Source: Trueperaceae bacterium (GTDB lineage Bacteria; Deinococcota; Deinococci; Deinococcales; Trueperaceae). From it: DNA of 15,197 nucleotides. Position numbers and translations under genes: made by a program. Of the stretch, positions 1 to 8,370 are shown one piece after another. The stretch is from positions 1 to 15,197 of the forward strand of contig JAABSI010000069.1 in NCBI GenBank assembly GCA_011390455.1, read 5' to 3'. The stretch's first letter is position 1, and every line of letters begins with the position of its first letter. The notes under the pieces were generated by a model, which was not told the DNA's origin, searched no databases, and saw only the letters and a program-made list of their open reading frames with translations.

Positions 1-249
1 GGTCTCGAAGGTCGCAGCGGGGTTCGCGGCGGCGAGCCAAGCGTCGTAGGCCAAATCGCCGTTAAGGTCGAACTCGATGGCGAGGTTGGTCGCGACGGCG
101 GCGTTGGAAGCGCCGAGCGTGAAGCGAAGCATGAGGACTTCTGGGATGGAGACCCGGACCTCGTGATCGACCTCATTGTTCTGCGCGAACACCGACCCAA
201 ACGAGGCGAGGACGAACATGGCCAGGGCAGAGACGAGGAACTTCTTCAT
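1..249 (-). CDS. Secreted beta-rich protein A (partial, N-terminal 83 residues)
   Basis: The frame is open from ATG at 249 to the window edge, so the C-terminus is missing. The N-terminus is a classic Sec signal peptide: MKK, a hydrophobic stretch, then VFA-Q with cleavage probably after about residue 22. The mature part begins NNEVDHEVRVSIPEVLMLRF, matching the start of the mature protein encoded just upstream (HQVSVSIPTVLRMRI), so the two are probably tandem paralogs. A GGAGGG ribosome binding site lies at 255-260. A c-di-GMP-II riboswitch directly precedes that site, so expression should follow cellular c-di-GMP. The protein family is not recognised. The short alternating hydrophobic pattern fits an extracellular beta-sandwich such as an adhesin, pilin-like or matrix protein, but that role is inference from fold style and regulation. 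Confidence 0.8.
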   Translation of the reverse strand, partial: MKKFLVSALAMFVLASFGSVFAQNNEVDHEVRVSIPEVLMLRFTLGASNAAVATNLAIEFDLNGDLAYDAWLAAANPAATFET

Positions 250-264
250 GATGACCCTCCGGTA

Positions 265-339
265 CTTCGGCCGGTTGCGCTACTAGCTCCCTCGAGTCCA
301 AGCGCCCAAGTTGCGGGCTCGAGTTCATCGCTTCCGAAG
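265..339 (-). promoter_or_regulatory. c-di-GMP-II riboswitch upstream of protein A
   Basis: Read on the minus strand, the element has P1 (CUUCGG/CCGAAG, 334-339 with 265-270), the conserved GAUGAA (324-329), and P2 (CUCGAG/CUCGAG, 318-323 with 291-296). The P2 loop holds UUGGGCGCUUGG; its GCGCU (301-305) pairs with AGCGC (277-281) to form a pseudoknot. This is followed by the invariant-looking CAACCGGCC. Order, spacing and sequence match what I recall of the clostridial c-di-GMP-II aptamer (GAUGAA, UUGGGCACUUG, AGUAGUGCAACCG). The ribosome binding site of the gene begins only 3-4 nt after P1, so translational control is likely. I recognised it by eye without a covariance-model score. Confidence 0.9.
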
Positions 340-437
340 GGCGGGCGACCGCGGGTTGGTTTGCGGCGCCGGTTGAGATGCCACGCAGGATGACCGAGGC
401 GCTCTGACCGGGCTCTTACTTTCTAACCGACACGGGC

Positions 438-489
438 GTGGGGTTCTTCACACGGTCGAACTTGACCTAGGTCGTGTGAAGAACCCCAC
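438..489 (-). terminator. 17-bp inverted repeat, probable terminator of protein B gene
   Basis: A perfect 17-bp stem (438-454 with 473-489; arm GTGGGGTTCTTCACACG) flanks an 18-nt loop. It starts 20 nt after the stop codon of the upstream minus-strand gene. There is no T-tract after the stem, as with the other hairpins in this window, so termination efficiency is uncertain. It isolates the two riboswitch-controlled genes from each other, consistent with each having its own control element. The perfect symmetry would also fit a protein-binding site. Confidence 0.65.
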
Positions 490-509
490 AGCGGGTGTCA
501 GGGACGCGC

Positions 510-983
510 TCAGGGCTGGGTCAAGGTGTAGACGACGGTTCCTCGATACGTTCCATCGGAAAGCGAACGGAGCAGCCCGTACGTGACCTCGAACGCGCGC
601 CATCCATCGGTCGCCGAGCCGGTGGCGAGCCGCGTACCGCCCGCGAGGCGGTGCCACGTGGTCCCGTCGAGCGTGGCGCCCAGGGGAACGGTGGCCGCGT
701 TGGAGGCCGCCCGGTACCGGACGTCGAGCGCCCAGTCGGCGTTCGCGCGGACCTCGATGCGGGTGCTTCCGGGGTTGATCCGGACGCGGTCGCCGGCGAC
801 CGTGACGGCGACGTCGAGCGCGGAGCGATCGCGGGTCGTGGCGTCGTCGATGCGCATGCGGAGCACCGTCGGAATCGATACGGAGACCTGGTGGGACGCG
901 GTTCCTTGGGCTAGGGCGCCCCCGTGGGGGACGACCAGCGCCAAGCACAGCGCGAGGACCTTCGAGAGGTCGTGAAGACGCAT
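510..983 (-). CDS. Secreted beta-rich protein B (157 aa), c-di-GMP-II controlled
   Basis: ATG at 983 is chosen because an AAGGAG site (992-997) sits 8 nt upstream; a GTG at 992 in the same frame overlaps that site and is unlikely. The product starts with a Sec signal peptide (MRLHDLSK, hydrophobic LALCLALVV, cleavage near ALA-Q at about residue 26). The mature part is short and beta-rich: HQVSVSIPTVLRMRIDD, an INPGSTRIEVRANADWALDV segment, and a final strand GTYRGTVVYTLTQ. There are no cysteines, catalytic motifs or membrane anchor in the mature part. It is a probable paralog of protein A. The last strand ('G-T-Y-x-G-T-V-x-Y-T-L') recalls fimbrial or WxL-type beta-sandwiches, so an adhesin or matrix component is a reasonable inference. 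No family is assigned. Confidence 0.85.
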   Translation of the reverse strand: MRLHDLSKVLALCLALVVPHGGALAQGTASHQVSVSIPTVLRMRIDDATTRDRSALDVAVTVAGDRVRINPGSTRIEVRANADWALDVRYRAASNAATVPLGATLDGTTWHRLAGGTRLATGSATDGWRAFEVTYGLLRSLSDGTYRGTVVYTLTQP

Positions 984-1109
984 CCAAACCACTCCTTAGT
1001 GTGGTCGGGATGCAACCTATTGTCGGTGTCGCCTGCGGTGCCCTGGGGCCCGCGGCGTCGGTCTGCGTGCTGCGACCGCTCGCCACGTACCTTCGCGCGG
1101 TGCAGACTC

Positions 1110-1187
1110 CATTCGGCCGGTTGCATCACTGGCTCCCCGAGTCCCATGATGCCCAGATAGGGATCCTCGGTTCATCGCCTCCGAACG
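1110..1187 (-). promoter_or_regulatory. c-di-GMP-II riboswitch upstream of protein B
   Basis: On the minus strand: P1 CGUUCGG/CCGAAUG (1181-1187 with 1110-1116, one G-U), GAUGAA (1171-1176), and P2 CCGAG/CUCGG (1166-1170 with 1137-1141) extended by UCCC/GGGA (1160-1163 with 1142-1145). The loop GCAUCA (1147-1152) pairs with UGAUGC (1123-1128) as a pseudoknot, followed by AACCGGCCGAA. Against the copy upstream of protein A, P2 (CUCGAG to CCGAG/CUCGG) and the pseudoknot (GCGCU/AGCGC to GCAUCA/UGAUGC) change in a compensatory way, while GAUGAA, UGGGC and GCAACCGGCC stay fixed. The leader continues about 110 nt to the gene, so the expression platform differs from that of copy A. Confidence 0.9.
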
Positions 1188-1582
1188 TTTCTGCGTTCGT
1201 CGGGGGGCGCTTGGCGCGGGCCCGGGGGCGTCGCGTCGCGGGGATCGCTCGATCCGACCCAAGCGCCCAACGGCGGGTCGGACGTCGGCGCGTCCTGCAC
1301 CCAGAGTATGCGTCAGGGCTGCTAACGGATGTCCCACATCGGCCGGGGTGCTCGGAACGTCGGGGGCGACGACCGCAGATAGTCCAGAGGTTCTGTCGGC
1401 ACGGGTCACCGCACGTGCCCGCGGGTGTGGTTTGGGCCCGTGTATCCTGCCGATGTGGAGCAAACGGGTACGTCGAGCACGCTGTCCGTCGCGAGACGGT
1501 CAGGGCGGCGGTCCAGCCAGAGGGGGTCAGGGCCGGGGTGCAGGATGGGACGAAGCGGGTGGGTCGAACGCGAGGACCTCCG
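1188..1582. other. Divergent intergenic region between riboswitch B and the ion-channel gene
   Basis: I see no convincing gene here. It must contain the promoter for the riboswitch-B transcript (minus) and probably that of the ion channel (plus), but no clear -35/-10 pair stands out. It holds two notable structures: CGAACG-CAGAAA-CGUUCG on the minus strand (1182-1199), which overlaps the 5' strand of riboswitch P1, and the aptamer-like hairpin at 1205-1282 listed separately. Confidence 0.6.
1205..1282 (-). other. Degenerate c-di-GMP-II-like hairpin/pseudoknot
   Basis: On the minus strand an 8-bp stem UCCGACCC/GGGUCGGA (1275-1282 with 1253-1260) encloses a loop containing UUGGGCGCUU, the same loop string as riboswitch A. 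The segment GGGCGCUUGG (1259-1268) is fully complementary to CCAAGCGCCC (1205-1214) downstream, which is the aptamer's pseudoknot topology with a much longer linker. GAUGAA and GCAACCGG are absent, so it should not bind c-di-GMP as a canonical aptamer would. It may be a decayed tandem copy or a chance GC-rich structure. Confidence 0.3.
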
Positions 1583-2416
1583 ATGAGCGACCGAGATCCT
1601 AGCGAGCAGTCGGACGCGAAGGCCCGGGAAGCGGAGGACCTGACCCGAGACCGCTACGAGCTCCTCCAGCGTCTGGAGGACTGGCTCGAGGCGCCGATGC
1701 TCGTGCTCGCGTTCGTCTGGTTGGTGCTGCTGGTCGTGGAGTTGATTCGCGGCGAGAGCCCGCTGTTCAACGTGCTCGGCACGATCATCTGGGTCGTCTT
1801 CATCCTCGATTTCGGCGTGAAGTTGGTCCTGGCCCCCGGCAAGGTCGACTACTTCAAACGCAACTGGCTGACGGCCGTGTCGCTCCTGATCCCCGCCTTG
1901 CGGCTCTTCCGGGTCACCCGCGCCTTCCGGTTGCTCCGTCTGGCCCGCACTGGCCGGGGGTTGCGCCTGGTTCGCGTCATCAGTTCGCTGAACCGCGGGA
2001 TGAAGGCGCTGGGCGCGAGCCTGAGTCGGCGAGGTTTCGGGTACGTGCTCGCCCTGACGCTGTTGGTCACCTTCGCCGGCGCGGCCGGGATGTACGCCTT
2101 CGAGAGCGAGGTACCTGGCGGACCGAGCAACTACGGCGAGTCGCTGTGGTGGACGGCCATGCTCATGACGACGATGGGCTCGCAGTATTGGCCGGAGACG
2201 GCCGAGGGGCGCGTGCTGTGCCTCTTCCTCGCGCTCTACGCGTTCGGCGTCTTCGGCTACGTGACGGGGGCGCTCGCGACCTTCTTCGTCGGCCGCGACG
2301 CCGACAGCGACGACGCCGAGTTGGCTGGGGCCAAGCAACTGGCGGGCCTGCGGGACGAGGTGATCGCCTTGCGCGAAGAGATCCGGGCCATGTCGAGGCA
2401 AGCGCCAGGGGCGTGA
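1583..2416 (+). CDS. Voltage-sensor ion channel, VIC superfamily, atypical filter
   Basis: A 277-residue membrane protein. Hydrophobic segments lie at about 38-54, 62-83, 94-106, 151-173 and 210-237. Between the third and fourth lies a textbook S4 sensor with arginine at every third position (R107, R110, R113, R116, R119, R122). The pore helix and filter follow at about 184-202: TTMGSQYWP replaces the potassium signature T-x-G-Y-G. A soluble C-terminal helix (about 250-272) looks like a short coiled coil, as expected for a tetramer. The length fits bacterial single-subunit channels. ATG at 1583 is used with a weak GAGG site at 1572; the longer upstream frame is low-complexity and not protein-like. 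The ion carried cannot be read from the sequence; the missing GYG argues against calling it strictly K+-selective. Confidence 0.88.
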   Translation: MSDRDPSEQSDAKAREAEDLTRDRYELLQRLEDWLEAPMLVLAFVWLVLLVVELIRGESPLFNVLGTIIWVVFILDFGVKLVLAPGKVDYFKRNWLTAVSLLIPALRLFRVTRAFRLLRLARTGRGLRLVRVISSLNRGMKALGASLSRRGFGYVLALTLLVTFAGAAGMYAFESEVPGGPSNYGESLWWTAMLMTTMGSQYWPETAEGRVLCLFLALYAFGVFGYVTGALATFFVGRDADSDDAELAGAKQLAGLRDEVIALREEIRAMSRQAPGA

Positions 2417-2550
2417 GGCGAAGGCCCCACGCGCTTCACCGAGCGACGGGGCAATTGCCGAGGATGCCACCGCTCGCACTCGCACCGGGGTCGGCAAGCG
2501 GGAGCGGCCGATCCGATCCAACGGACGGGACGTCGACCCGCACGACGGAA

Positions 2551-2590
2551 CGAACGGTGGCCGAGGCGCACGCGCCTCGGCCACCGTTCG
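2551..2590. terminator. 19-bp palindrome, shared terminator between ion channel and tRNA-Pro
   Basis: A perfect 19-bp stem (2551-2569 with 2572-2590) whose innermost pairs must open to form the loop. It begins 3 nt beyond the tRNA CCA end on the minus strand and lies downstream of the plus-strand channel gene, so it can serve convergent transcripts from both sides. Flanking short T-runs (GATTT on plus, TTCGTTCC on minus) are modest. Confidence 0.75.
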
Positions 2591-2593
2591 ATT

Positions 2594-2670
2594 TGGTCGG
2601 GGTGGCCGGATTTGAACCGACGACCACTTGACCCCCAGTCAAGTGCGCTACCAGGCTGCGCTACACCCCG
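2594..2670 (-). tRNA. tRNA-Pro (anticodon GGG)
   Basis: A complete 77-nt cloverleaf with encoded CCA. The acceptor stem CGGGGTG/CACCCCG is perfect. The D stem is GCGC/GCGC with loop AGCCTGGTA. The anticodon stem is CTTGA/TCAAG with loop CTGGGGG, placing GGG at 34-36 after T33. The T arm GTCGG-TTCAAAT-CCGGC carries the TTCAAAT loop. The discriminator is A. It reads proline codons CCC and CCU. It has its own promoter upstream and a hairpin terminator immediately downstream, so it is a monocistronic tRNA unit. Confidence 0.97.
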
Positions 2671-2715
2671 AGGAGACCGCGACGCGGCGGCATCGGCCGC
2701 GCGCGAACGCCCCGA

Positions 2716-2745
2716 AGGATACGTGTCGAGGACGCAGCGCGTCAA
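2716..2745 (-). promoter_or_regulatory. Sigma-70-type promoter of tRNA-Pro
   Basis: On the minus strand TTGACG (2740-2745), an 18-nt spacer and TATCCT (2716-2721) form the best promoter in the window. The predicted start near 2709 gives a tRNA 5' leader of about 38 nt for RNase P to remove. Confidence 0.75.
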
Positions 2746-2766
2746 CCGAGCGTGGGCTCGGGCCGC

Positions 2767-2796
2767 GGGACACGCCCACGCGGTGCGCGGTAGGCT
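2767..2796 (+). promoter_or_regulatory. Putative leaderless promoter of the Nudix gene
   Basis: TAGGCT at 2791-2796 ends 8 nt before the ATG at 2805, with GGGACA 18 nt further upstream (2767-2772). No ribosome binding site is present before this ATG. A -10 box this close implies transcription starting at or next to the start codon, as is common in Deinococcota and Actinobacteria. Confidence 0.45.
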
Positions 2797-2804
2797 CCGA
2801 CGCG

Positions 2805-3440
2805 ATGAGCGATTCGACGAGCGGATCCGAGATGCTCGACGCCCTGGACGCCGACGGTCGCCCCACCGGGATCGCGATCACCCGCGAGCGGGCGCATGCC
2901 GAGGGCGTCTGGCACGGCGCGGTGCACGTGTGGGTGCTCACGCCGGACGGCGCCGTCGTTCTGCAACGCCGGGCGCGGGGGAAAGACCTGGGCGGCGGCA
3001 AGGTCGACGTCAGCGTCGGCGGGCACTTGGCCGCGGGGGAGACGTGGCTCGCCGGACTGCGCGAGGCCGAGGAAGAGCTCGGGGTGGCCCTGGACTTCGG
3101 CGATGTCGTCCACCTGGGGCGCTTCCCGTCCGAGCGCCGCTACCCGGACGGGCGCCTGGACCGCGAGTGGCAGGACGAGCTGGTGGCGATCGTCGATCAG
3201 CCGCTCGACGCCTTCGTCCTTCCGTGCGACGAGGTCGAGGTGCTCTACGAGGTGCCGCTGGACCGCGCCATCGCGTTGTGGCGCGACGGCGCGCCGGTGC
3301 CGGCGCCCGGTTGGGACTGCCAGCGGCGCGTGAACGACGCCCTGCTGATCGAAGACGACCTGATCGCGCCGGCGCGCGCGGGCACCCTCGTTGCCTTGGA
3401 GCGTGTAGCCGCGTGGTGGGCGACGCGAACGGACCCCTGA
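2805..3440 (+). CDS. Nudix hydrolase, IPP-isomerase/YfcD-like
   Basis: A 211-residue protein. The N-terminus 'E-M-L-D-A-L-D-A-D-G-R-P-T-G' and following 'VWHGAVHVWV...VVLQRRARGKD' are typical of the Nudix branch that resembles isopentenyl-diphosphate isomerase and E. coli YfcD. The Nudix box spans residues 73-94 (G73, E79, then REAEEELGV with the metal-binding E90/E91). The spacer between E79 and the R86-E87 pair is six residues, where the consensus has seven. Enzymes of this type hydrolyse nucleoside-diphosphate-linked compounds using Mg2+; the substrate cannot be assigned. ATG 2805 is preferred because the family's N-terminus starts there and upstream sequence is the tRNA and its promoter. 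The gene stands alone and is followed by a strong terminator. Confidence 0.88.
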   Translation: MSDSTSGSEMLDALDADGRPTGIAITRERAHAEGVWHGAVHVWVLTPDGAVVLQRRARGKDLGGGKVDVSVGGHLAAGETWLAGLREAEEELGVALDFGDVVHLGRFPSERRYPDGRLDREWQDELVAIVDQPLDAFVLPCDEVEVLYEVPLDRAIALWRDGAPVPAPGWDCQRRVNDALLIEDDLIAPARAGTLVALERVAAWWATRTDP

Positions 3441-3446
3441 TCGAGC

Positions 3447-3481
3447 GCGGCGGGCGAGGAACCGAGTTCCTCGCCCGCCGC
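3447..3481 (+). terminator. Terminator hairpin after the Nudix gene
   Basis: A perfect 16-bp stem (3447-3462 with 3466-3481) with loop CGA, starting 6 nt after the stop codon. The stem is GC-rich and has no clear T-tract. It could also stop the minus-strand small-peptide transcript coming from the right. Confidence 0.75.
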
Positions 3482-3516
3482 TGCGCGTATGGAGCAACCG
3501 ATACTCCTATGGGTCG

Positions 3517-3627
3517 TCAAGCCGTCAGCGCGATGGGCGCGCTGACGGGCGCGAGGCTGAGCGTCGCGACGAGGGCGACAGTGGAGAGCCAAGCGATGGA
3601 CGGAAGGTGGTGGGCGGTGCCTGGCAT
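3517..3627 (-). CDS. Small hydrophobic peptide, 36 aa
   Basis: ATG at 3627 is preceded by AAGGAGGA (3633-3640) at 5 nt spacing, the strongest ribosome binding site in the window, which is the main argument that this short frame is translated. The peptide begins MPGTAHHLPSIAW and continues as one hydrophobic segment (about residues 12-33, WLSTVALVATLSLAPVSAPI) ending ALTA. It could be a single-pass membrane peptide or a short exported product. It lies divergent from the subtilase gene. A hairpin at 3522-3548 lies inside its last codons. No family is recognised and no function is proposed. Confidence 0.55.
   Translation of the reverse strand: MPGTAHHLPSIAWLSTVALVATLSLAPVSAPIALTA
3522..3548. 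repeat. 11-bp inverted repeat inside the end of the small-peptide frame
   Basis: CCGTCAGCGCG (3522-3532) and CGCGCTGACGG (3538-3548) are perfectly complementary around a 5-nt loop. On the minus strand the stem covers the last codons of the 36-aa frame and ends 3 nt before its stop codon ends. It may be a terminator stem or an mRNA-stabilising structure. There is no T-tract. Confidence 0.6.
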
Positions 3628-3945
3628 GCACGTCCTCCTTAAACACGGATATGGGACCCGAGTTTTTTGGCAGCATGGATGCGACGCGGTTCGTACGGTC
3701 GAATGTCCCCATGCCCGGCGGCGCTGCCGGCCGCTATGGCTCCTTGAGCGGTTCGGGAGCGTACACGACGCCAATGGGGCGCGAGGCTTCTGCCCGCACC
3801 GACGTGAAGATGGGTGTATTGTGAGAAATCCAACACGGTGAGGGTTGGGCGTCGAGGTATCGACGCTGCCCGCGACGGATGCCGATGCCGTGGATGGGGT
3901 GGTGCCGTGAGATCAACCGCGGCATTCGGATGAGGAGGCGAGACC
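3628..3945. other. Divergent region between small peptide and subtilase
   Basis: About 318 bases without a supported gene. It includes the ribosome binding sites at both ends (AAGGAGGA on minus at 3633-3640; GAGGAGG on plus at 3932-3938) and must carry promoters for both transcripts, but no convincing -35/-10 pair was found. It has a lower GC patch around 3815-3835 (TGTATTGTGAGAAATCC on plus), the likeliest area for a promoter. Confidence 0.5.
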
Positions 3946-6552
3946 ATGAGGCGGATGGTGGCATGGATGGTCCTGGTGTTCTTGGCCGGCGTGCTCACGG
4001 CCTGCGGTGGGCTTCAGCAGCAGGCGTTGGAGCAAGACGCAGGTCCGGAGGTGGGGCTCGGGGCGCAGAGCGTCGAAGCGCCTAGGTTCCTCGGTACCTT
4101 GGGTAACGAGTTTGATGGATCTATGGTCGACGAGACACCCTCGGCCTGGTTCGTGCAGTTCTCGGGCCAGCCCTCGGTCAAGGGTGGGCGCGCCAATGCG
4201 ATGGCCAACGAGCGCGCGTCGTTCCGGCGGGCGGCGGCGGCCGAGGACATCGTGTACGCCGAACGGCTCAGCTTCGAGACCCTGTTCAATGGAATGTCGG
4301 TGGTGGCGACGCCGTCCGAGATCGGCAAGTTGGCGAAGCTTCCTGGGGTCGTAGCCGTGTTCCCCGTCGTGACCATCGACGCCCCAGAGCCCGGTGACAC
4401 CACGCTGCCCGACATGCAGACGGCGCTCGACATGACCGGCGCGCGGTTCGCGCAGGACACGATGGGGCTGTCCGGCGAGGGCATCCGGGTAGGCATCATC
4501 GACACGGGCATCGACTACATGCACCCCGACCTGGGCGCTGGCTGGGGCGCTCGAGTGACCTACGGATGGGACTTCGTCGGCGACGCGTACAACGCGGGCG
4601 ATCCGGCAAACGACGTGCCGGTGCCCGACCCCGACCCAATGGATTGCAACGGCCACGGGACGCACGTGGCGGGCATCGTCGGCGCGGACGGCGACCCCGC
4701 GGCTGGTCGCGTTCTCGGCGTGGCACCGGAGGTCGAGTTCGGTGCCTACCGCGTCTTCGGCTGCGAGGGCTCATCGACCGCCGACCTCATCGTCGCCGCG
4801 CTGGAGCGCGCCTACCTCGACGGCATGGACGTCGTGAACATGTCGCTCGGCGCGGCGTTCCAGTGGCCGCAGTACCCGTCGGCCGTCGCCTCGAACGCCC
4901 TGGTCGACGCAGGCGTCGTCGTCGTGGCCTCGATCGGCAACAGCGGCGGCACCGGCGTCTACTCGGCTGGCGCGCCCGGCGTCGGCGAGAAGGTCATCGG
5001 GGTGGCGTCGTACGACAACACGTTCCTCGAGCAGAACCTGCTCGAGGTGGCCGGTCGGACGATCGGCCACGCGACGCTGACCGATGCACTCGACCCTCCC
5101 ACGAGCGGTACCGAAGAGGTCGTGTTCGTCGGACGCGCATGCAACGTCGATCCCTTGGTCGAAGATCCGGCGGGTAAGGTCGCCCTGGTCGTGCGGGGAG
5201 CCTGCGCCTTCTCCGAGAAGGCCGTCAACGCCGAGACCGCAGGCGCCACCGCCGTCGTGATCTTCAACAACGCTCCGGGTCCCTTTGCCGGCACCCTGGC
5301 CGGCGTTCCCGTTGGTGTCCCCGTCGTGAGCATCGCGGGGGAGGACGGCGAGTTCATCGCTGCCCAAGCCGCCCCGATCCTCCTCGCCTGGCTCGACGGC
5401 AGCGCCCTGTTCCCGAACCCGACCGGCGACCTGATCTCCTCGTTCAGCTCCTACGGTCTTGCGCCCGACCTCACGCTCAAGCCGGACCTCGGCGCGCCCG
5501 GCGGCCTCATCCGCTCGACCTACCCGCTGGCCCTCGGCGGCTACGCGGTCCTGAGCGGCACGTCGATGTCCGCGCCGCACGTCGCCGGTGCCGTCGCGCT
5601 GCTGCTCGAGGCCCGGCCCGACACCGCCGCCGAGGACGTCATCACCCTGTTGCAGAACAACGCTGACCCGAAGCCGTCCAGCCTTGACCCCACCCTTGGC
5701 CTCGACTTCGTGCACCGCCAGGGCGCCGGCATGATCAACATCCCGCGCAGCATCCTGGCCGAGACGTCCGTGACGCCTGCCAAGCTGTCGCTGGGCGAGA
5801 CCGAGGTCGGTCCCTTCACGACGACGCTGACGGTCTGGAACGATGGGGACGAAGACGTCACCTACGGGCTGAACGCCCAGGCTGCCTCAGTTACGGCATT
5901 CAACACATACTTCCCATCGTTCGGCACTGCTCCCTTCACGGTGACCTTCGGTGCCCCGTCCGTCACGGTACCGGCCGGCGGGAGCGCGACCGTCTCGGTG
6001 ACGATCACCGATCCGTACCAACTCCCGTCCCTGATCGCGGGCGGCTACATCGAGTTCTTGGCCCCGGACGGCGCCATCGCCCACCGCGTGCCCTACGCCG
6101 GCTTCTCCGGCGATTACCAGGTGCTCGAGGTCCTGGTGCCGACCGGCTTCGGCTTCCCGTGGCTGGCGACCCTCGAGGACGACTCGTTCTTCAACCAACC
6201 CGACGGCGCCCGCTACACCATGAAGGGCGACGACATCGCGTACGTCCTCGCCCACTTCGAGCACTACTCGCAGGTCACGAAGCTCGAGATCGTGCCCCTG
6301 CGCCAGGTCGGCGGCGCTCGCGACCTCGGCGTCATCGAGCTCGAGTACTTCTACCGCAACAGCACGCCCACCGGCTTCTTCGCCTTCGAGTGGGACGGCT
6401 CGGCCAAGGTCAACGGTCGGCGCACGACGCTGCCGATGGGGGACTACCAGCTCAAGCTGTCGGTGCTGAAGGCGCTCGGGGATCCGAGCAACCCCGCGCA
6501 CTGGGAGACCTGGACCTCGCCAACCATCTCCATCGCGCGCAGCAAGAACTGA
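3946..6552 (+). CDS. Lipoprotein subtilisin-like serine protease (S8) with PA domain
   Basis: 868 residues. ATG 3946 follows GAGGAGG at 7 nt spacing. The signal peptide ends in a lipobox (V-L-T-A-C, Cys20), so the protein should be lipid-anchored outside the cytoplasmic membrane. Residues about 62-145 look like an I9 propeptide inhibitor. The S8 catalytic domain follows, with Asp186 (GIIDTGID), His237 (NGHGTHVAG), oxyanion Asn332 (SIGNSGG) and Ser540 (SGTSMSAPHVAG). Between Asn332 and Ser540 a protease-associated (PA) insert lies at about 400-460 (KVALVVRGACAFSEKA). After the catalytic domain come an Fn3-like beta domain (from about 605) and further beta-rich C-terminal sequence to about 860. 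This is the layout of large extracellular subtilases that degrade proteins for nutrition; the exact substrate is unknown. All catalytic residues are present. It appears monocistronic. Confidence 0.95.
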   Translation: MRRMVAWMVLVFLAGVLTACGGLQQQALEQDAGPEVGLGAQSVEAPRFLGTLGNEFDGSMVDETPSAWFVQFSGQPSVKGGRANAMANERASFRRAAAAEDIVYAERLSFETLFNGMSVVATPSEIGKLAKLPGVVAVFPVVTIDAPEPGDTTLPDMQTALDMTGARFAQDTMGLSGEGIRVGIIDTGIDYMHPDLGAGWGARVTYGWDFVGDAYNAGDPANDVPVPDPDPMDCNGHGTHVAGIVGADGDPAAGRVLGVAPEVEFGAYRVFGCEGSSTADLIVAALERAYLDGMDVVNMSLGAAFQWPQYPSAVASNALVDAGVVVVASIGNSGGTGVYSAGAPGVGEKVIGVASYDNTFLEQNLLEVAGRTIGHATLTDALDPPTSGTEEVVFVGRACNVDPLVEDPAGKVALVVRGACAFSEKAVNAETAGATAVVIFNNAPGPFAGTLAGVPVGVPVVSIAGEDGEFIAAQAAPILLAWLDGSALFPNPTGDLISSFSSYGLAPDLTLKPDLGAPGGLIRSTYPLALGGYAVLSGTSMSAPHVAGAVALLLEARPDTAAEDVITLLQNNADPKPSSLDPTLGLDFVHRQGAGMINIPRSILAETSVTPAKLSLGETEVGPFTTTLTVWNDGDEDVTYGLNAQAASVTAFNTYFPSFGTAPFTVTFGAPSVTVPAGGSATVSVTITDPYQLPSLIAGGYIEFLAPDGAIAHRVPYAGFSGDYQVLEVLVPTGFGFPWLATLEDDSFFNQPDGARYTMKGDDIAYVLAHFEHYSQVTKLEIVPLRQVGGARDLGVIELEYFYRNSTPTGFFAFEWDGSAKVNGRRTTLPMGDYQLKLSVLKALGDPSNPAHWETWTSPTISIARSKN

Positions 6553-6663: not shown

Positions 6664-8370
6664 CTACCCCTCGAGCACCGTCGGCAGGATGAGCGGGTTG
6701 CGGCCCGTCGCTTTGCGCAGGTAGCGCCGCACCGGGTAGAAGATGTCGTCGCGGATGTCCTGCAGCCGGCGCTTCTCCTTGACCCCGCGCTGGACGGCGT
6801 CGAGCGCCATCTTCTCGATCTCCTTGATCACGCCGTTGTTGCCCTGGGCGACGCCGCGGGTGATGACCTCGACGCTCGCCTGGCGGCTCGCGACGGCCAT
6901 GATCACCACGATGCCCTCCTCGGAGAGCATCTGGCGGTCGCGGATGATCGGCTCGTCGATCTCGTCGGTGCTCTTGCCCACCGAGTCGATGTAGATGATG
7001 CCGGTCTCGATCTGGCCGGTCACCTTCATGTCGTCCTTGGTGATGGTCACGATGTCGCCGTTGCGCGGGATGATCGCCTTCTTGGGCGGGCGCGGCATAC
7101 CCTCGGCCAAGCGCAGGTGGTTGACCTGGTGGCGCGGCTCGCCGTGCCACGGGATGAAGAAGCGGGGGCGGGCGAGGTCGAACACCAGCTTCAGCTCCTC
7201 GCGCGAGGCGTGGCCGGACACGTGGACCTTGAACTCGGGCGGGTAGAAGACGGTGATGTCGCGCTCGTAGAGCTGGTTGATCACGCGGTTCACGGCCTCT
7301 TCGTTGCCCGGGATCGGGTTCGAGGACATGATCACGGTGTCGCCGCGCTTGAGCGTGATCTTGCGGTGGGTGCCGGCCGCGAGGCGCGCGAGCGCCGCCA
7401 TCGGCTGGCCCTGCGAACCGGTGCACAGGAAGAGCAGCTTGTCGTCCTGGATGCCGTCGAGCTTGTCGGCCTCCACGAAGGGCTGCCGCAGCTTGAGGTA
7501 CCCGAGCTCCTGCGCGATCCGCGCCACCTTGATCATCGAGCGCCCCTCCATCACGATCCGCCGGTCGTACTGCTCGGCGACGGTGATGATGTTCTGGAGC
7601 CGGTGGACGTGCGAGCTGAAGGTGGTGACGATCACGCGGCCGGGCGCCTTGGCCATGATCTGGTTGATCGCGCCCTTGACGTCGTACTCGCTCATCGTGG
7701 TGCCCGGGCGCTCGGCGTTCGTCGAGTCGCTGATCAGCAGGAGGACGCCGTCGCGGCCGGCCTCGGCGATCTTGTGCAGGTGGCTCGTCTGGCCGTCGGC
7801 CGGATGGTAATCGAGCTTGAAGTCGCCGGTGTAGACGATGCGACCGATCGGCGTGTGGATGACCATGCCCGAGTTGTCGGGGATCGAGTGGGTCATGCGG
7901 AACATGTCGACGGTGAAGTGCGAGCCGATCTTGATCCGCTCGTCGGTCGTGATCTCGTGGAGGTCGACGTCGCTCTCCTTGAGCTTGAACTCCTCGAACT
8001 TGCCGCGCAGGAGGCCCAGCGTGAGCTTCGCCCCGTACATCGGGATCTTCTTGGGCAGCTGCTTGAGCATGTAGGGGAGGCCGCCGATGTGGTCTTCGTG
8101 GCCGTGGGTCAGCACCCAGCCCTTGATCTGGTGGGCGTGCTCGACCAGCCAGTCGATCTTGGGGACCAGGATGTCGACGCCGAGCATGTCGGCGTCGGGG
8201 AAGGCGAGACCGCCGTCCACCATGAGGATCTCGTCCTCGTAGCGGAACGCGGCCATGTTCTTGCCGATCTCGCCGAGCCCCCCGAAGGGGATGTACTCGA
8301 GCTTGCGATCGGCTTGGTTGGCGCCGCCCTCGTCGGGGCGGTCGCCCTTGCGGGAACCTCTTCGTGCCAT
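6664..8370 (-). CDS. rnj: Ribonuclease J (metallo-beta-lactamase / beta-CASP)
   Basis: A 568-residue, full-length RNase J. This enzyme has 5'-to-3' exonuclease and endonuclease activity on mRNA and rRNA precursors. Signature parts are the opening 'E-Y-I-P-F-G-G-L-G-E-I-G-K-N' (from about 25), the zinc motif H89-G-H91-E-D93-H94, the second metal region around TGDF, the beta-CASP segment with ISDSTNAERPG and FSSHVHRLQ, 'VHVSGHA', and the C-terminal 'PRFFIPWHGEPRH'. A final domain of about 110 residues ends the protein, as in Bacillus RNase J1. ATG 8370 has an upstream GGAAAGGG site. The gene sits directly downstream of pnp on the same strand, suggesting a grouped RNA-decay locus; two hairpins between them may uncouple expression. 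Confidence 0.96.
   Translation of the reverse strand: MARRGSRKGDRPDEGGANQADRKLEYIPFGGLGEIGKNMAAFRYEDEILMVDGGLAFPDADMLGVDILVPKIDWLVEHAHQIKGWVLTHGHEDHIGGLPYMLKQLPKKIPMYGAKLTLGLLRGKFEEFKLKESDVDLHEITTDERIKIGSHFTVDMFRMTHSIPDNSGMVIHTPIGRIVYTGDFKLDYHPADGQTSHLHKIAEAGRDGVLLLISDSTNAERPGTTMSEYDVKGAINQIMAKAPGRVIVTTFSSHVHRLQNIITVAEQYDRRIVMEGRSMIKVARIAQELGYLKLRQPFVEADKLDGIQDDKLLFLCTGSQGQPMAALARLAAGTHRKITLKRGDTVIMSSNPIPGNEEAVNRVINQLYERDITVFYPPEFKVHVSGHASREELKLVFDLARPRFFIPWHGEPRHQVNHLRLAEGMPRPPKKAIIPRNGDIVTITKDDMKVTGQIETGIIYIDSVGKSTDEIDEPIIRDRQMLSEEGIVVIMAVASRQASVEVITRGVAQGNNGVIKEIEKMALDAVQRGVKEKRRLQDIRDDIFYPVRRYLRKATGRNPLILPTVLEG

Follow-up and report, generated by a model that had tools for sequence, protein, structure and literature searches.

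Paralogous, probably exported subunits with differing predicted c-di-GMP-II riboswitch leaders at a conserved locus of the Deinococcota

Genes and aptamers at the locus

The window analysed here is a stretch of 15,197 nucleotides (nt) from a Trueperaceae bacterium of the phylum Deinococcota (contig JAABSI010000069.1, assembly GCA_011390455.1), and this report concerns two neighbouring genes at its left end, designated A and B, each preceded by an aptamer predicted to bind the second messenger cyclic diguanylate (c-di-GMP). Comparison with related genomes favours, with a probability of roughly 0.55, a reading in which A and B encode subunits of the same surface system, conserved in Deinococcota, and the amount of each is set by c-di-GMP. 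The genes and their aptamers are as follows.

1-249, minus strand: gene A, a putative exported subunit of beta-sandwich type, truncated by the window edge (83 codons visible)
260-344, minus strand: c-di-GMP-II aptamer of A, GCGC type (RF01786, 69.4 bits)
510-983, minus strand: gene B, a putative exported beta-sandwich subunit of 157 amino acids (from the sequence and an AlphaFold2 model)
1106-1191, minus strand: c-di-GMP-II aptamer of B, GAUGC type (RF01786, 63.0 bits)

Both aptamers exceed the RF01786 gathering score of 53.5 bits, in agreement with the first-pass annotation, which had placed the same riboswitch class ahead of each gene; the class is assigned by covariance-model score and ligand binding is predicted. 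According to the available part of one report, the c-di-GMP-II class is typical of clostridia and deinococcus (PMC9495176), and the available part of another reports an enrichment of tandem c-di-GMP riboswitches in the Deinococcota, with classes I and II pooled (PMC12452182).

Paralogy and predicted structure

The products of both genes look exported, the signal peptides being judged by eye, and share an N-terminal motif (HEVRVSIPEVL in A and HQVSVSIPTVL in B). The paralogy first proposed from this motif is real, because an hhalign comparison of nine A-type with 34 B-type sequences gives a probability of 98.1 and an E value of 9.6 × 10−14 over 130 columns, almost the entire length of the proteins, and because the B profile also matches A-type genes of other genomes (E = 4.6 × 10−9 to 6.3 × 10−4). 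A search with B matched 38 proteins, the window's own copy included and nearly all of full length; the fragment of A matched a single protein, and the A gene of a related contig, L004 (described below), matched six. The full-length protein nearest to A of the window is P0043 (191 amino acids), with 85% identity over 82 residues. Among the relatives of A (P0039-P0045, L004 and L003), two types of signal peptide occur with two types of mature protein in all four combinations, which suggests recombination at gene A.

Both proteins had also been described as rich in beta structure. This holds for B, for which AlphaFold2 predicts a beta sandwich beginning at residue 41 with a mean predicted local distance difference test (pLDDT) score of 83.8; for A, the model built on P0043 from nine sequences reached a pLDDT of only 45.9 and was set aside. 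Residues 26-40 of the B model, which hold the conserved H-x-V-x-V segment, are placed outside any strand, with low-to-middling confidence, a prediction that fits, without showing it, a strand destined for another molecule. Foldseek with the B model returned nothing at E ≤ 0.001, and the top rows from VIA-align were unrelated folds mixed with pilins.

Start-codon hairpin of B

The 122 nt leader between the aptamer and the start of B includes a hairpin over the start codon, and the start-codon region itself resembles the pseudoknot strand of the aptamer. The segments concerned are listed in the order of their coordinates.

980-985, minus strand: segment 3, GGATGC, which holds the start codon of B
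980-1017, minus strand: hairpin over the start codon of B, with covariation among 24 loci
1008-1017, minus strand: segment 2, GGTTGCATCC, partner of either segment 1 or segment 3
1119-1127, minus strand: segment 1, GATGCAACC, 3' strand of the pseudoknot of the B aptamer

Segment 2, a strand of 10 nt, is completely complementary to segment 1, and its 3' part complements segment 3. The same relationship was sought among 152 catalogued aptamer sites, the window included; gene starts, here and at the loci described below, were called by a heuristic that is wrong in some cases (L276 and L277). The gene starts with ATGC at 14 of 18 sites of the GAUGC type, compared with 31 of 121 of the GCGC type. 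A stretch resembling segment 2 (p < 0.05) is found at 13 of the 18 GAUGC-type sites with a called gene, usually 30-37 nt ahead of the start and farther away in genome G017, where the called start is wrong. In a phylum set of 111 genomes, which contains a family set of 39, a search for the aptamer strand GAGCCAGTGATGCAACCG gave 18 sites in 16 genomes, all within the family set, and a search for GAGCCAGTGGTGCAACCG gave 21 sites in 21 genomes, none of them within it.

The hairpin is present in 24 of the 40 loci examined, the window among them (16 of 19 of the AUGC type and eight of 21 of the GUGC type). All 144 cells of the lower stem are paired across these 24 loci, 11 of them being altered on both sides, and the lower-stem covariation of 0.327 (0.214 in shuffled alignments) was reached by none of 500 shuffles. 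The pair at the first base of the start codon is U-A in 21 loci and C-G in three, and the pair adjoining it is C-G in 15, U-A in eight and U-G in one. Over the entire hairpin of 12 pairs 86.3% of cells are paired, above all 500 shuffles, the upper part being less regular. Exchanging the hairpin arms between 16 loci, two loci of contig C334 in G025 having been excluded, lowered the score in all of 2000 trials (from 22.7 to 19.2).

Joint pairing of segment 2 with the aptamer strand and with the start-codon region was assessed in loci picked by the aptamer strand alone, independently of the choice of the 24 loci with hairpins. For the AUGC type it is significant (p < 0.01 against 300 shuffles) in 15 of 18 loci, including L276, whose start is probably wrong, and for the GUGC type in eight of 21; L277 was dropped because its automatic start lies too close. 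All eight GUGC-type positives adjoin a gene for a chaperone-like protein, and five of the eight match the B profile. At L258-L260 a GUG start is accompanied by GCACC in segment 2 and GGUGC in the aptamer strand. At L261-L272, outside the family, 12 GUGC-type aptamers stand before other genes, for the most part lipoprotein-like, and have no start-codon hairpin.

An alternative explanation is that the hairpin is constitutive, the match between segment 2 and the aptamer being a by-product of the shared (A/G)UGC and c-di-GMP acting through transcription or RNA decay, or hardly at all. Equilibrium folding is consistent with this, as the hairpin of the window is predicted to be closed with or without ligand; equilibrium thus favours the hairpin regardless, and a functional switch in B would have to depend on the order of folding. 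Several observations nevertheless speak against a constitutive hairpin. The helix with the aptamer strand comprises at least seven pairs in 15 of the 18 AUGC-type and eight of the 21 GUGC-type loci, and segment 2 reaches 5' into GGUU, the complement of AACC in the aptamer, which is superfluous for the hairpin. This GGUU part is altered in the B gene of G003 (segment 2 is GGGCTTCATCC), upstream of which no aptamer is detectable. Segment 2 also fits the aptamers of its own class better than those of the GCGC class (20.4 versus 16.7, with 1000 draws peaking at 17.6). A constitutive hairpin is regarded as rather unlikely. In folding calculations, blocking the aptamer changed the accessibility of the start codon by −0.15 on average at 15 GAUGC loci, compared with +0.10 in 180 controls, the values for individual loci ranging from −0.74 to +0.39.

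The aptamers at these loci exceed the Rfam thresholds for the c-di-GMP-II riboswitch (RF01786) or its GAG variant (RF03169), and B-type aptamers differ from known c-di-GMP-II riboswitches in that the pseudoknot strand carries the start-codon context of the gene that they precede (AUGC or GUGC). No description of a start-codon context inside an aptamer pseudoknot strand was found in the open-licence literature, in so far as its text was available.

Leader of A and other short leaders

Only 10 nt separate the aptamer from the start of A, and two elements of this leader may be relevant to its regulation.

255-262, minus strand: CCGGAGGG, ribosome-binding site of A, complementary to 334-341
334-341, minus strand: CCCTTCGG, 5' strand of aptamer stem P1, a possible alternative partner of the ribosome-binding site of A

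Long complementarity between the 5' strand of P1 and the ribosome-binding site occurs in five of nine A leaders. In short riboswitch leaders generally, GGAGG is preceded by CC in 15 of 24 cases compared with 11 of 45 other starts, a comparison in which many sites are orthologous and the background contains some riboswitch genes. Two further groups of short leaders were observed. Genes for pentapeptide-repeat-like lipoproteins lie 10 nt past a c-di-GMP-II aptamer at L036, L037, L039, L046, L051, L136 and L142, the ribosome-binding site touching stem P1. Genes for lipoprotein-like proteins of about 531 amino acids (L172, L176, L179, L180, L187, L193 and L195, in G025 and G026) are separated from the aptamer by 3-5 nt, and the 3' strand of P1 contains or adjoins their ribosome-binding site, an arrangement that suggests an off switch.

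The locus in related genomes

The first-pass annotation anticipated further members beyond the left edge of the window, and two, C and D, are found in L004. Over 461 nt, comprising the inside of B, the aptamer of A and the first codons of A, this contig and the window have the same sequence; L004 then carries a different A gene, for which it was rejected as directly continuing the window. The bin that contains L004, G004, has an RNase J-like gene with only 88% identity to that of the window, so that L004 may have been mis-binned, may come from a sister strain or may reflect a switch during assembly. The window gene at 6664-8370 is closest to that of G017 (92%), followed by G001, G016 and G004 (88-89%).

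In the coordinates of L004, gene C (1085-1684) is followed by a gene for a two-domain chaperone-like protein of 254 amino acids (1710-2474), by D (2471-3415) and by a convergent gene (3432-6374) for a large protein of 980 amino acids. C, the C-terminal half of D, A and B form one family, the half of D matching the subunits with an hhalign value of 99.3 (E = 1.9 × 10−20). The large protein has carboxypeptidase-regulatory-like domains in nine of nine members and NEW3-type domains in five of nine; it is probably an outer-membrane protein, with a middle part that may, on our own reading of the sequence, be a beta barrel. By comparison, then, the locus of relatives carries C, a chaperone-like protein with two immunoglobulin (Ig)-like domains, D and a large probable outer-membrane protein. 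The extension to the left thus supplied the expected chaperone-like gene, together with the large one; the usher that had also been envisaged has no family match (PF00577) in any of the 39 family genomes, the Escherichia coli control being positive.

All or part of the gene set of L004 is found by tblastn at loci of G002, G003, G024, G025, G026, G027 and G028. The four genome loci first found with the B profile are all in Trueperaceae assemblies, and the profile has matches in 10 of the 39 family genomes. Among the matches listed, c-di-GMP-II aptamers over the cut-off occur in 33 of these 39, with up to 21 in one genome; in the phylum set they occur in 64 of 111 genomes. Relatives of the chaperone-like family are present in 56 of the 111, and at least 22 of these genomes, counted by hand, have a copy no more than about 4 kb away from an aptamer. 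Twenty loci were fetched: an aptamer is present in all 12 chosen for one nearby (L222-L233) and, among the other eight, only in L234. The 12 contain the chaperone-like gene in every case, the large protein in 11 and a subunit match (E = 0.001) in 10. At L228 two aptamers precede a B-like gene, after which a third aptamer precedes in turn a subunit, the chaperone-like gene and the large protein, all on a single strand, an arrangement that agrees with the order in the family of the window; L226 and L229 resemble it but have a GAG-type aptamer ahead of the second gene. At L222-L225 and L231-L233 a B-like (or equivalent) gene with a c-di-GMP-II aptamer is divergent from a chaperone-like operon with the GAG variant. 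In a plasmid collection, three Deinococcus plasmids match the chaperone-like protein at 27-28%, all annotated as hypothetical, and the large protein is unmatched.

The aptamers ahead of B also have a tandem history, as indicated by two elements upstream of the intact aptamer.

1205-1214, minus strand: CCAAGCGCCC, reverse complement of the loop (1259-1268) of the decayed aptamer
1222-1304, minus strand: degenerate aptamer, the first of what was apparently a tandem pair (RF03169, 27.4 bits, cut-off 40)

The decayed aptamer is apparently the remnant of a tandem pair. Both aptamers of the pair are intact ahead of B in L102, L103 and L108, whereas in G002 one aptamer is intact and the other weak (29.3 bits), and in the window one is intact and the other degenerate. 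Aptamer pairs of the GCGC type, about 85-110 nt apart, were seen in many family genomes (L033, L041, L129, L135, L139, L143, L147, L152, L154, L158, L163 and L165) before lipoprotein-like genes with the motif FGAFTYGGVWxGMEP, which are glycosidase-like by eye.

The first-pass annotation regarded the arrangement as a duplicated cassette of riboswitch plus gene. This simple form of the proposal is not upheld: the B-A order is old and recurs within and beyond the family, C and D in L004 have no aptamer of their own, and B combines a GAUGC-type pseudoknot with a leader of 122 nt, A a GCGC-type pseudoknot with one of 10 nt. Since the pseudoknot types and leaders differ, A and B are probably not regulated alike.

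Comparison with known surface systems

The gene set is comparable to that of chaperone-usher pili, both archaic (Csu and CupE) and alternative (Ecp), in that it comprises small subunits, a large protein of outer-membrane-like character, a protein with two Ig domains and a two-part subunit. The two-part subunit corresponds to D, which may have a tip role. In the B model the N-terminal segment lies outside the strands, to be compared with the donor strand of CupE as given in the available part of its description (PMC10104325). The chaperone-like family matches EcpB/EcpE of strain K-12 with an hhalign value of 84.7 (E = 6.7 × 10−6) over 137 columns, the best of 22 decoys having an E value of 0.028. 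Against the classical K-12 chaperones the value is 2.3 (E = 0.02) after signal peptides were removed by a crude rule that leaves some ends ragged, and 77.4 before. The large protein matches EcpC in the C-terminal domain only (16.9, E = 0.0015) and the classical ushers with 1.4 (E = 0.036). A relationship of the subunits to K-12 pilins was rejected as a signal-peptide effect, the value falling from 75.8 with signal peptides to 1.9 without; this test says little, as the reference pair of classical pilins and EcpA scores 0.1. PapD_N (PF00345) has no match at these loci. Its lone match over the cut-off in the 111 phylum genomes is at L206 (G042:C134, E = 3.1 × 10−14), and G042 may therefore have a regular chaperone-usher system.

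Both EcpB/EcpE and WxLIP proteins lend strands, in the case of WxLIP by prediction, to beta-sandwich partners. The clusters of WxL and WxLIP (DUF916-DUF3324) proteins likewise combine small and larger beta-sandwich proteins with a two-Ig-domain partner, and the locus might be the diderm counterpart of this Gram-positive anchored adhesin complex rather than a pilus. The best matches of the chaperone-like profile among solved structures are to EfmWxLIP1 (9i25 and 9i1y), below threshold at E = 0.024; WxLIP (PF06030) is matched by one of 14 chaperone-like members (E = 0.0044); and the first W-x-L motif, W84-x-L86, is invariant among B-type proteins. WxLIP is predicted, in the part of the source available, to lend a strand to WxL (PMC10599100). 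However, the dual W-x-L motif is absent, the second, C-terminal motif being YTL or a variant. The WxL Pfam domain is found in none of the 34 B-type members (E up to 10), nor in A, C and D of L004 or P0043 (E up to 5). PF06030 is over the cut-off in none of the 39 family genomes, although three of its four sub-threshold matches are members of the chaperone-like family. Riboswitch control also sets the locus apart, and the large probable outer-membrane partner would have no place in Gram-positive clusters. A WxL/WxLIP counterpart seems unlikely.

Other features of the window

Between B and A lies one further element.

438-489, minus strand: inverted repeat with two perfect 17 nt arms and no U tract afterwards

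The 82 nt stretch around it has a folding energy of −40.3 kcal/mol, and a scan for terminators and promoters gave no match. Beside the locus are an ion-channel gene (1583-2416), a tRNA-Pro (2594-2670), a NUDIX gene (2832-3440) and a subtilase with PA and fn3-like domains (3946-6552), none of which (1583-6552) has an aptamer over the Rfam cut-off. Elsewhere, prepilin-like genes (MRTRNNGF[ST]...) lie 54-56 nt behind an aptamer at L174 (G025:C113) and L190 (G026:C710), so that type IV-pilus-like parts may belong to the same regulon.

Proposed regulation and significance

In the favoured reading, of two subunits whose amounts are set by c-di-GMP, the bound aptamer of B would retain segment 1, so that segment 2 could pair with the start codon and its surroundings and B would be off. 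In the absence of the ligand, segment 2 would first pair with segment 1 during transcription, and B would be translated. Ligand would favour the start-codon hairpin because the bound aptamer cannot release segment 1, and c-di-GMP would thus turn B off. For A the proposal is more tentative: because the 5' strand of P1 can pair with the ribosome-binding site, ligand might draw this strand into P1 and off the site, turning A on. That c-di-GMP switches on both A and B as ordinary biofilm genes with additive riboswitches is improbable: c-di-GMP commonly favours matrix and pili, and the clear targets of these aptamers in the family are mostly exported or lipoprotein-like genes, as in a matrix regulon, but the B leader indicates an off switch and the two leaders have no common expression platform.

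As for the proteins, the fibre or adhesin envisaged by the first-pass annotation is plausible. The N-terminal H-x-V-x-V-x-I-P-x-V-L segment may be a strand that is donated to a neighbouring molecule, in the manner of WxL complexes or strand-complemented pili, with the large protein as the exit through the outer membrane. Several results weigh against the favoured reading. The lack of an usher in the family genomes and the lack of any meaningful Pfam family match for the subunits A and B bear on fibre assembly. An on switch for A finds no support in a permutation test (663 of 2000) or in folding, where the calculation gives no more than the control (0.28 versus 0.27).

A bolder version of the favoured reading is doubtful. 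It would define a new phylum-wide class of strand-complemented fibre in which c-di-GMP, acting on riboswitches of opposite sign, toggles between the two paralogues. In B this would proceed by start-codon mimicry, the pseudoknot strand copying the AUGC or GUGC start and ligand deciding which copy is covered by the shared antisense strand. The GAG-type aptamer over the chaperone-like operon outside the family would add a second signal, and two signals may then set the surface composition.

The riboswitch class and its presence and tandem arrangement in Deinococcota are already known; the conserved locus, the putative start-codon mimicry and a likely difference in sign between paralogous subunits seem to be new. 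To our knowledge, little is known of the outputs of c-di-GMP in Deinococcota. If the favoured reading is true, the locus would provide a concrete example of a Deinococcota surface structure controlled directly by RNA. It would also represent a new design of translational riboswitch, based on an aptamer that mimics the start codon under its control. If A and B are opposite in sign, the choice of the subunit that coats the cell would depend on a single second messenger.
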